DNA of 64,000 bases from Actinomycetes bacterium (GTDB lineage Bacteria; Actinomycetota; Acidimicrobiia; Acidimicrobiales; JAMCPL01). Location of the stretch: the NCBI GenBank assembly GCA_021816935.1, contig JAKAWR010000002.1, positions 67,039 to 131,038 on the forward strand. Direction: 5' to 3'. This document shows, piece after piece, positions 11,080 through 30,942 of this stretch; position 1 is the stretch's first letter; every line of letters starts with the position of its first letter. The notes beneath the pieces were generated by a model. That model was not told the origin of the DNA and made no database searches. It saw only the letters and a program-made list of their open reading frames with translations. Made by a program: the position numbers and the translations under genes.

Positions 11080-11323
11080 AACTGCACGTCGCTACGCCTT
11101 ACCCCCCACTCGTGCAGTCCTTCTTGAGCCCGCTGTCGTTCGTCGGCGTCTTCTCGGTAGGGTCCCAGTAGAGATTCCCTCCAAGGTCCACCTCGAAAGA
11201 ACTTCCGGCGGGCGGCACCGTCAGCGAGCCCGCAGACGATCCGTAGAAACCGGAAGATCCGGAAGATCCCGCCTGCGTCGATGTCTTCAGCGTGTACGAG
11301 GTTACCACCATTAGCCGAGGGAG
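11080..11323 (-). pseudogene. Partial copy of the pilO 3' end (cassette 3)
   Basis: This segment is almost identical to 13075-13318, the last 75 or so codons of pilO and the bases just after its stop; the offset is exactly 1995 bp. It encodes RLMVVTSYTLKTSTQAG through DSGLKKDCTSGG and the same stop. It has no upstream half of pilO, no start codon of its own beyond the artificial ATG in the track, and no ribosome-binding site. Homology ends on one side after GCAGTT and on the other where the repeat end at 11324 begins. It is either a remnant of a duplication or a silent donor cassette. Confidence 0.8.
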
Positions 11324-11357
11324 CGTCTCATCCAACCTCCCTATCCGCTGAGCCTCT
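11324..11357 (+). repeat. Solo end of the interspersed inverted-repeat element
   Basis: CGTCTCATCCAACCTCCC and the following TATCCGCTGAGCCTCT match the complement of 34588-34621 at 31 of 34 positions with no gap. It sits exactly between the pilO copy and the stop codon of the DUF4143 ATPase. The other end of the element is not seen here. Confidence 0.7.
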
Positions 11358-12646
11358 TAGGGTCCAAGCAGACCGAGAGGAACCACCGTCACCCCGTCAT
11401 CACGCCGGTACGCGTATTCAGTTCCGGTCAGGATCACGAGCGCCGCGGCAGGGCGAACGGCACGGGTGGACGCCAAACGAAGCAGAGCCCTGGCAGCGGC
11501 ATCTATCATGTTGGAACCAATCTTTACTTCGATACCAACCCAAGCTCCGTCACGACGTTCAACGATGAGGTCGACTTCGAGCTCGCCCGCTCTTTCTCGG
11601 TAATGATACACGGACGCATTTGCTGCGGTGGCATAGACACGGACATCGCGGGCCACAAGCGACTCGAACAGGTAGCCCAGCATGTTGAGATCGCCGAGCA
11701 ATCTCGAGGGGTCGCACTCCATGAGCCCTGCGGCCAGGGAAGGATCAACGAGGTACCGCTTGGGAGTAGTCATCAGGCGGGTCCGTGATCGAAGCTCGGG
11801 GTTCCATGCTTCTATATCGTCAACCACCATAAGGCGACCGAGAGCATCAAGATACGGTTCGGCTGTCCAGCGGGATGGCGCCTCGCCATTGGCAATGCCC
11901 CGAGCCCTTTCCACTATGGTGCTCAGCTTCGCCGGATGCGCGATCAACTGAGCGTAAGCCTGCAGGAACCTTCTGACAAGGCGCGGGTTGCGCCGGGCAC
12001 CCGAGATTATGTCAATATCGTGCTCGACTATCGTGTCGATGTAGCCGCTCACAAAAGCAATGGCATCGTGAACCGGCCGCCCGATCAACCCCGGCCAACC
12101 CCCTATCACTATCCGCTCGGCATACGTGGGCAAGTCCAATGTGGATGTGCCCGTGGGAGGGTCACAACCATCGAGAAGCTCTGCAAGCGAGACCGTGCCA
12201 GGAGAAAACCCCTGTTCGAATAGGGTCATGGGCCGTAGGCGCACGACCGTCATGCGCCCGGCACCGGAGTGCCGGATGGCATTGTCCTGAGGTGTGGCGG
12301 ATCCGGTCAGGATGAACTGGCCAGGAGATCGACGTACATCTACCTCTCTCCGGACAGCATCCCAGATAAGTGGCTCTCGTTGCCATTCATCAATGAGTCG
12401 CGGAACTGCTCCAGGAAGGATGAGCCGAGCGTCGAGGGCTGCTGCCCGCTGGGCTTCCGGGTCGATGTCGAGGAGGATCTCGCTTCGGGCATATTGCCTG
12501 GCCGTCTCGGTCTTGCCGCACGCCTTGGGCCCCTCGATCACAACCGCTCCGAGCGCATTCAGAGCGGAGGCCACCGATGCATCGGCAACGCGTCTCAAAT
12601 ACTGACGGTTCCGGCCAGGAAGGATTGGCATGGTTGGTTCGGCCAT
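11357..12646 (-). CDS. DUF4143-type AAA ATPase
   Basis: This 429-residue protein has a Walker A motif GPKACGKT (residues 39-46) near the N-terminus and a Walker B-like LIDEWQ. The sensor strand ILTGSA and the DUF4143 C-terminal half follow, with FIETLVA-like LFESLVARDVRVYA. A PD-(D/E)xK-like strand pair, ELEVDLIV...VGIEVK (about residues 360-382), follows. This is the common bacterial/archaeal family of AAA proteins joined to a degenerate nuclease-like domain; its function is poorly known and it often behaves as an accessory gene. It is flanked by pilO 3' copies and has a dense operator array at its promoter. The transcript appears leaderless: TAGAAT ends 8 nt before the ATG and there is no ribosome-binding site. 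The stop codon lies at the boundary of the repeat end at 11324-11357, so the C-terminus may have been set by that junction. Confidence 0.85.
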   Translation of the reverse strand: MAEPTMPILPGRNRQYLRRVADASVASALNALGAVVIEGPKACGKTETARQYARSEILLDIDPEAQRAAALDARLILPGAVPRLIDEWQREPLIWDAVRREVDVRRSPGQFILTGSATPQDNAIRHSGAGRMTVVRLRPMTLFEQGFSPGTVSLAELLDGCDPPTGTSTLDLPTYAERIVIGGWPGLIGRPVHDAIAFVSGYIDTIVEHDIDIISGARRNPRLVRRFLQAYAQLIAHPAKLSTIVERARGIANGEAPSRWTAEPYLDALGRLMVVDDIEAWNPELRSRTRLMTTPKRYLVDPSLAAGLMECDPSRLLGDLNMLGYLFESLVARDVRVYATAANASVYHYRERAGELEVDLIVERRDGAWVGIEVKIGSNMIDAAARALLRLASTRAVRPAAALVILTGTEYAYRRDDGVTVVPLGLLGP

Positions 12647-12654
12647 CGAGAGTT

Positions 12655-12683
12655 ATTCTACAAGTCGCAACCGTTTCAATCAA
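12655..12683 (-). promoter_or_regulatory. Leaderless promoter of the DUF4143 ATPase gene
   Basis: TTGATT - 17 nt - TAGAAT - 8 nt - ATG on the minus strand. The -35 hexamer (12678-12683) falls between the first and second iterons, so a protein bound to the array would block RNA polymerase. Confidence 0.6.
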
Positions 12684-12741
12684 CAACTCGCAACCTTCTT
12701 GATCCCCAAGTCGCAACCGTTCCAATCAACAACTCGCAACC
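12665..12741 (-). repeat. Four 23-bp iterons (GGTTGCGA) at the ATPase promoter
   Basis: TCGCAACC on the plus strand (GGTTGCGA in gene sense) starts at 12665, 12688, 12711 and 12734, so the period is exactly 23 bp. Units 1 and 3 also share the filler CGCAACCGTTTCAATCAAC (one T/C change in unit 3). The regular same-face spacing and overlap with the -35 region suggest a cooperative binding array, probably autoregulatory. It is not a CRISPR array. Confidence 0.75.
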
Positions 12742-12818
12742 TCGCAGCACCGCACTTTACTGGGCAGCAAAGGTGCCTCGATACCTGCCACTCGTACGCC
12801 ACTAGCTGGGACTCGACT

Positions 12819-13079
12819 TTACGAGCTGGCCGCCGCCTTGGAACAGGCTGTTGCCAGCTCGTCGCTGTTTTTCGGAACAGTCTCGTTGAGATCGTAGTAG
12901 ATGAACCCAGCCAGGTCCACCTCGAAGTTGGTGGCCGAACTCGGCAGGGTCGTCGAACTCCCCGACCCCCCGTAGTAACCGGAAGACGAGGACTGCGCCA
13001 CCGCCTGTTCCAACGTGTACGAAGTCACCACCATGAGCCGCGAGAACGTCCCAGCCAATTTGATGAAGGACAGCAACTG
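12819..13079 (-). pseudogene. Diverged pilO 3' end (cassette 2), no upstream half
   Basis: The frame QLLSFIKLAGTFSRLMVV lines up with QLLKFIRLVGTFPRLMVV in pilO. It continues through a Ser/Gly-rich loop (SSSSGYYGGSGSS), FEVDLAGFIYYDLNETVPKNS and a new C-terminus ending ACSKAAASS. The conserved alternation, intact frame and own stop codon suggest selection until recently. It lies directly after the pilO stop and lacks the membrane helix and the coiled part of PilO. It could be the tail of a decayed second pilO gene or an alternative C-terminal cassette that can be exchanged with pilO. Confidence 0.7.
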
Positions 13080-13318
13080 CGCGTCGCTACGCCTTACCCC
13101 CCACTCGTGCAGTCCTTCTTGAGCCCGCTGTCGTTCGTCGGCGTCTTCTCGGTAGGGTCCCAGTAGAGATTCCCTCCAAGGTCCACCTCGAAAGAACTTC
13201 CGGCGGGCGGCACCGTCAGCGAGCCCGCAGACGATCCGTAGAAACCGGAAGATCCGGAAGATCCCGCCTGCGTCGATGTCTTCAGCGTGTACGAGGTTAC
13301 CACCATTAGCCGAGGGAA
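13075..13318 (-). repeat. Direct repeat partner of 11080-11323 (pilO 3' end)
   Basis: About 244 bp of near identity to 11080-11323. The two copies are in the same orientation and bracket cassette 2 and the DUF4143 gene, so recombination between them would delete 1995 bp and leave one intact pilO. Confidence 0.8.
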
Positions 13319-13765
13319 CGTCCCGACCAACCTGATAAATTTGAGGAGCTGGTCATAGGTGCCGGTTACCGTGACGGTAAAGGCAATGGGCACCAGTGGA
13401 CTGGTAGTCCCCTTCGCCGCAGGCAGCGCTGTCTGAGCTGGGAAGCTGAACTGTACCTGCCCGGTAGGAATGCCCGAAGTATTTGCGAACGTCTGCAGGT
13501 CCGTAATGAAGACATTCTGGTCCGGACTTGACGGGATCTGCAGCGACTGAGTCGTCAGCCTCGTGCAGTTCGTACGAGTGTGTGGGAGGTGCTCGAGCTG
13601 GATTACGGTCGCCCTTAGGGTCTGCTCTCTCGTCGTCAGGTTGGCCACGGTAGAATTGGTGGAAGCCAGCTTGGACGACTCGGGGCTGATCCAGGCAAGA
13701 TACACGGCAATGAGCACGACCACGACTGCGGCTAGAGCAATGCCCGGATACCTCAACCGCTGCAT
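13094..13765 (-). CDS. pilO: Type IV pilus alignment protein PilO
   Basis: This 223-residue inner-membrane protein has a short cytoplasmic N-terminus (MQRLRYPG), one membrane helix (IALAAVVVVLIAVYLAWI) and a coiled segment (SSKLASTNSTVANLTTREQTL). An extracytoplasmic ferredoxin-like fold typical of PilO follows (FTVTVTGTYDQLLKFIRLV...LMVVTSYTL). PilO pairs with PilN and with PilM-bound partners to form the alignment complex of the pilus machine. The ORF-track start at 13825 is too early; the ATG at 13765 has GGAGAGG 5-6 nt upstream. The gene is last in the operon after pilM-pilN, and it is followed at once by diverged and near-identical copies of its own 3' end. The C-terminal Ser/Gly loop (STQAGSSGSSGFYGSSAG) is the most variable part between copies. 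Confidence 0.85.
   Translation of the reverse strand: MQRLRYPGIALAAVVVVLIAVYLAWISPESSKLASTNSTVANLTTREQTLRATVIQLEHLPHTRTNCTRLTTQSLQIPSSPDQNVFITDLQTFANTSGIPTGQVQFSFPAQTALPAAKGTTSPLVPIAFTVTVTGTYDQLLKFIRLVGTFPRLMVVTSYTLKTSTQAGSSGSSGFYGSSAGSLTVPPAGSSFEVDLGGNLYWDPTEKTPTNDSGLKKDCTSGG

Positions 13766-29067: not shown

Positions 29068-30942
<1,875 letters not shown>

Follow-up and report, generated by a model that had tools for sequence, protein, structure and literature searches.

The element considered here lies in a 64,000-nt stretch of an Acidimicrobiales genome (contig JAKAWR010000002.1, positions 67,039 to 131,038; hereafter, the window), in which an array of four contiguous 23-bp direct repeats, or iterons, precedes the gene for a 429-aa AAA_14/DUF4143 ATPase (11357–12646, minus strand), which is probably leaderless and corresponds to PDC-S01 in PADLOC. 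The comparison of this array with those of related genes suggests that it is likely to be the private operator of the adjacent gene, read by the ATPase itself in a form of cooperative autogenous control that would probably be repressive. Autogenous control had been proposed from the letters of the window alone (here, the sequence-only reading), and the proposal receives strong comparative support: the array is found with the ATPase gene and with no other conserved gene, the repeat sequence varies with the protein, and the distance between repeats goes with the protein clade.

The array occupies positions 12655–12746 of the minus strand and has the core GGTTGCGASTTGTWGA. In gene sense, the units (12746–12724, 12723–12701, 12700–12678 and 12677–12655) read TGCGAGGTTGCGAGTTGTTGATT, GGAACGGTTGCGACTTGGGGATC, AAGAAGGTTGCGAGTTGTTGATT and GAAACGGTTGCGACTTGTAGAAT, followed by AACTCTCG and by the ATG at 12646. 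The four occurrences of TCGCAACC described previously, at 12665, 12688, 12711 and 12734, with a period of 23 bp, were recovered: the self-match score was 34 at lag 46 and 28 at lag 23, 5000 dinucleotide shuffles giving at most 17, and a chance origin of the array is excluded. The second half of the repeat is degenerate in one unit (GACTTGGGGATC), and alternate units are the most similar, resulting in a 46-bp sub-period with a 97% match across 36 nt. This likeness, together with the contiguity of units that lack unique spacers, rules out an array of clustered regularly interspaced short palindromic repeats. The spaced motif pair has no second occurrence in the 2.32-Mb assembly. When single units were searched, the exact sites were confined to the window array, and matches with two and three mismatches were modestly more frequent than those of a reversed-pattern control (46 vs. 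29 in all).

The array overlaps a promoter-like sequence, TTGATT-N17-TAGAAT (12655–12683, minus strand), also pointed out in the sequence-only reading and now placed: TTGATT is found at 12683–12678, within the third unit, and TAGAAT, after 17 nt, at 12660–12655, within the fourth, leaving 8 nt between it and the ATG at 12646. The hexamers occupy equivalent positions in two consecutive iterons (23 = 6 + 17), and no other promoter-like site was found in the 400-nt region, where 0.1 were expected. The additional suggestion that this promoter is leaderless is plausible, given the lack of a Shine–Dalgarno (SD) sequence, the −10 element eight nt from the ATG and a similar arrangement in around half of the arrayed relatives. 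Because of this leaderless geometry, the array is presumably not transcribed; a search of the locus against Rfam gave no RNA family match, and the predicted RNA structure of the array had a z-score of −2.2. Tandem direct repeats that lie over the promoter of a gene, and are conserved with that gene, are what would be sought in an autoregulated iteron operator, and both features were found.

A scan of genomes for relatives of the ATPase yielded 14, and the five closest (L004–L007 and L016, 74–82% identical, from sources including other Actinomycetes metagenome-assembled genomes, or MAGs, and a Dormibacterota MAG) have 2 to 6 similarly oriented copies of GGTTGCGACTTGTNGA or of a closely related unit, and their arrays finish with TAGAAT or TAGACT a few nucleotides short of the start codon. 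None of the neighbours of the window gene adjoins the homologue in these five loci, which argues that gene and array move together. Most relatives at 37–43% identity maintain the spacing with other repeat sequences, such as GCGAAACGGTAGCGT, GATCTGTAGCGTAGA or TTCGATGGATGGTAG. Thus, the inspection of upstream regions suggested in the sequence-only reading did reveal arrays in homologues and did not refute the idea, although GGTTGCGA itself, the motif that was to be looked for, is confined to close relatives.

A survey based on the Pfam family and on protein queries provided 174 non-redundant homologues whose upstream DNA could be read, and significant tandem arrays were found upstream of 103 of them. 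In a close set of 74 homologues (at least 150 bits with phmmer), 58 had significant arrays, all but one of them (57) at 22–24 or 45–46 bp; the best period was 23 bp in 42 cases, 46 bp in 11, 24 bp in two, and 22, 45 and 56 bp in one case each. When the self-match was averaged over the 74 members, lags 23, 46 and 69 were the only ones to stand out, and a peak at 23 was seen even for the 12 members that did not reach significance individually. Scores of at least 12 were obtained for 51 of 101 DUF4143 upstream regions, compared with 5 of 120 regions upstream of other genes (one of the five being a DUF4143 array counted from its divergently oriented neighbour), 6 of 86 downstream regions and none of 90 coding stretches. 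Fisher tests of arrays against controls gave p values of around 1e-23 to 1e-26, which are indicative only, since homologues are not independent and the lag range in the survey of 174 was wider than that of the control. The rule extends to other phyla, including plasmid copies from Bacteroidota, Chlorobiota and Lactobacillales. A spacing of 23 bp was seen in two faecal contigs labelled as phage and in homologues on plasmids of Bacteroides ovatus, B. uniformis, Prosthecochloris aestuarii, Lentilactobacillus hilgardii and Collinsella aerofaciens; a Rhizobium plasmid showed 22 bp (p 0.01), an IMG/VR contig 46 bp and the Actinomyces oris homologue 23 bp, the latter without significance. The Prosthecochloris unit, GGCGAAACGGTAGCGTAA, is almost identical to the units of actinobacterial homologues and of one from Spirochaetaceae (L010, 67% protein identity).

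The spacing rule is a property of the protein. In a tree of the 174 homologues, a clade of 135 members (support 1.0) has 23-type spacing in 83 cases and 32-type spacing in one, while in its sister clade of 18 (support 1.0) there are 13 members with 32–33 bp and none with 23 bp; the 32–33-bp members that were tested are also PDC-S01 by profile. Since both classes occur in a single genome (G143, which carries 22 copies), the spacing is independent of the host and follows the protein clade. The two spacings, 23 and 32–33 bp, are about one helix turn apart, which may leave neighbouring protomers with a similar rotational offset in both classes. The notion that the spacing is set by the −35/−10 geometry, attractive in the window, was rejected as a general cause, because the 32–33-bp clade breaks it, the two classes share a genome and many arrays are located upstream of a separate −10.

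Whereas the spacing is shared, comparison of the units shows that the repeat sequence is private to each protein. Repeat-unit similarity follows protein identity over 65 arrays (Mantel r 0.33, p 0.001), and pairs of proteins that are 60–80% identical have an average unit similarity of 12.5, the random expectation being 9.28 (standard deviation 1.17). Paralogues from the same genome, at 9.34, are at the random level. In the complete genomes G119 and G143, the tested units sit in their own arrays, with one two-mismatch match elsewhere per pattern. Across 39 loci no neighbouring gene was conserved, and no partition or other replication gene was common, which makes the ATPase itself the likely binder; moreover, a host factor would be poorly able to read arrays that differ between paralogues, and the conserved ATPase again emerges as the likely reader. 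The idea that the arrays are bound by an unrelated host regulator, or that they are neutral tandem duplications, is accordingly the least credible of those considered. Slippage can create tandem repeats, and near-identical units do exist in L114 and L240, but neither a host regulator nor duplication would be expected to give arrays that keep one spacing per protein clade in several phyla while their sequences are unrelated, that are private to each paralogue, and that are rare in upstream, downstream and coding controls.

The protein matches DUF4143 (PF13635, 102 bits, cut-off 28.1) and AAA_14 (PF13173, 46.7 bits, cut-off 27) in Pfam, and its match over residues 15–427 to the PADLOC profile PDLC04790 (E 2.9e-72) places the whole protein in PDC-S01. 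In consequence, the family role of the DUF4143 ATPase, considered unclear in the sequence-only reading, is less of a blank, PDC-S01 being a candidate phage defence. The Walker A motif (GPKACGKT, residues 39–46; 12509–12532, minus strand) has G39, G44, K45 and T46 invariant in 13 homologues, and LIDEWQREP, in the Walker B region, is invariant in the 13-sequence alignment. The AlphaFold2 model (predicted local distance difference test, 83.6; predicted template modelling, or TM, score, 0.86) comprises a P-loop domain, a region of three helices and one short strand, and a C-terminal alpha/beta nuclease-like domain. The three-helix region, residues 221–283 (11798–11986, minus strand; helices 221–236, 241–251 and 263–271), modelled with moderate confidence, would correspond to a winged helix and is the candidate reader of the iterons. 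In the C-terminal fold, residues E328, E357, D359, E373 and K375 (11522–11665, minus strand) form a PD-(D/E)XK-like motif; all are invariant in the alignment except E373, which is nearly so, and the conserved acids and lysine fall in the expected strands of the model, pointing to a predicted nuclease. Foldseek retrieved ORC/Cdc6, CED-4, MalT, RuvB and Avs proteins and, weakly, Card1/Cdn1, but with low TM-scores, so these matches hint at folds and do not provide a family. No relative with a solved structure was found by sequence search, and a search of the PHROG phage families gave no match.

An ATPase with a winged helix, encoded beside its own repeats, with ORC/Cdc6 among its structural matches and with some plasmid-borne homologues, brings to mind an initiator-type origin, in which the ATPase would start the replication of an integrated or extrachromosomal element in the style of Rep and iterons or of Orc1/Cdc6 and origin recognition boxes (ORB). 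In iteron plasmids, the Rep protein is autoregulated and binds direct repeats of around two helical turns located before its own gene. The window locus has direct repeats of this size in front of the gene of the candidate binder, but it is chromosomal and solitary, and it does not qualify as an iteron plasmid replicon, as Pfam identifies only AAA_14 and DUF4143 and no Rep family. Similarly, Orc1/Cdc6 proteins combine an ATPase with a winged helix and have repeats beside the gene, each paralogue being tied to its own locus, and haloarchaeal origins depend specifically on the co-located cdc6 genes (PMC3936714). However, ORB repeats are replication origins whereas the DUF4143 arrays are short, strictly spaced tandem repeats at promoters, and the window protein has a predicted nuclease domain; membership in Orc1/Cdc6 was discarded, as there is no Pfam match and the similarity is at the fold level, with low TM-scores. 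An origin is very improbable when one considers that the window gene lies alone between pilus genes in a chromosome, that up to 22 paralogues coexist in one 3.4-Mb chromosome, that the nuclease residues are invariant, that the arrays sit on the promoter and that replication genes are not common among the neighbours.

The position of the arrays bears on the sign of the proposed autogenous control. In 31 of 62 arrayed relatives, a TANNNT sequence is found 4–12 nt before the start, within or beside the last unit, and 30 of these 31 lack an SD sequence. This fact, together with the −10 held by the last iteron in the window, makes repression of a leaderless promoter the simplest sign. A model can be proposed in which the predicted winged helix of each protomer would contact one iteron, while the ATPase domains would hold neighbouring protomers together, so that the array would be filled cooperatively and with a fixed helical phase. 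With the last units over the −35/−10 of the leaderless promoter, occupancy would exclude RNA polymerase and would keep a potentially harmful nuclease-ATPase at low levels, induction taking place once the protein is diverted or its nucleotide state altered. The alternative of an ATPase that switches on its own promoter by binding the array, or acts as a nucleotide-switched activator/repressor like the STAND regulator MalT, is unlikely although not negligible. MalT appears among the structural matches and, in many AT-rich members, the array is 30–60 nt or further from the start, with a separate −10 in between. In the window and in around half of the arrayed members, by contrast, the −10 is within the last unit or next to it, where a bound protein would normally block polymerase.

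Several observations weigh against a repressive operator read by the ATPase as a rule for the family. Many Coriobacteriia arrays are situated upstream of a separate −10, where activation is possible. No significant tandem array precedes 16 of the 74 close members or many of the distant ones, and the second DUF4143 gene of the window's genome (L018, contig C6, 87266) also has none. Finally, when the co-variation between residues and repeats was analysed, the two best columns, W281 and T261, were both inside the predicted winged helix, yet this region was not enriched among the top 30 columns (8 of 30, vs. 81 of 382 tested).

Some members without tandem arrays present other elements. In L018, TATCCTTG and CAAGGATG arms flank the promoter region, and palindromic elements, such as TTACTCAATATGTTGAGT or AAGGCCTTATTTTCGCC facing its own complement, occupy the same place in other DUF4143 clades (L047, L048, L050, L091, L106, L037 and L032). 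Inverted repeats at p ≤ 0.02 were detected in 14 of 46 non-tandem members, although some of these repeats may be terminators; the palindromes perhaps represent a second operator type of the DUF4143 family. In a Bifidobacteriaceae MAG (L014), a 23-bp repeat with a CCCACAAAGC core precedes a ThiF-family open reading frame (1254–2357) near a DUF4143 gene.

That gene and array shift together between neighbourhoods could also be read as the sign of a mobile cassette, the array being a cassette end or a nuclease target for transposition or homing. The window cassette is indeed flanked by two 259-nt direct repeats, 98% identical (11080–11338 and 13075–13333), which encode the C-terminus of a PilO-like protein; a third, diverged copy (12819–13076) lies between the intact pilO and the array. 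These pilO-tail repeats may be a trace of the route by which the cassette came into the pilus locus. In addition, one locus of genome G143 (L068, 126–205) has its TCGGAWWWTC array directly downstream of the gene as well, in the same orientation. However, this is the sole case among 69, so that the idea of arrays bounding a mobile element on both sides was rejected as a rule, and the arrays are absent elsewhere in the genomes tested; a homing or transposition target is, therefore, a highly doubtful explanation. Elsewhere in the window, positions 29186–29237 contain a tandem 12-bp repeat, GGGCTGCCCCTC.

PDC-S01 has been described as an ATPase fused to a PD-(D/E)XK member, with a defence role deduced from genome context, and reportedly ranks fourth in abundance among prokaryotic defences, although as a candidate, most PDCs being described as awaiting validation (PMC12988326). 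No published description of an operator, array or regulation for PDC-S01 was found among open-licence PubMed Central papers, in which DUF4143 appeared once, in a gene table, and PDC-S01 in three papers. A further likeness is that of RptR, which represses the promoter of a type I restriction-modification defence island through three direct repeats overlapping the −10 (PMC12255303). Here too, direct repeats cover the −10 of a candidate defence gene, but RptR is a small dedicated regulator that reads 9-bp repeats of conserved sequence, whereas in DUF4143 the reader seems to be the effector itself, each protein having a repeat sequence of its own.

An operator present across the family, with quantised spacing, would be a first mechanistic handle on the control of PDC-S01. 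The arrays predict a sequence-specific, oligomeric DNA binder whose sites can be read by inspection for many members, the spacing rule constrains the models of the oligomer, and single genomes would hold sets of probably orthogonal protein–operator pairs. More tentatively, and with the odds against it, PDC-S01 systems, as solitary ATPase-nucleases found across phyla, may be self-contained switches, in which each protein would recognise no array but its own, the geometry of the oligomer would fix the spacing (23 bp, or around one turn more) and an array emptied, for instance, by withdrawal of the protein during phage infection would induce the nuclease. Were this the case, the paralogues within one cell would be mutually orthogonal.
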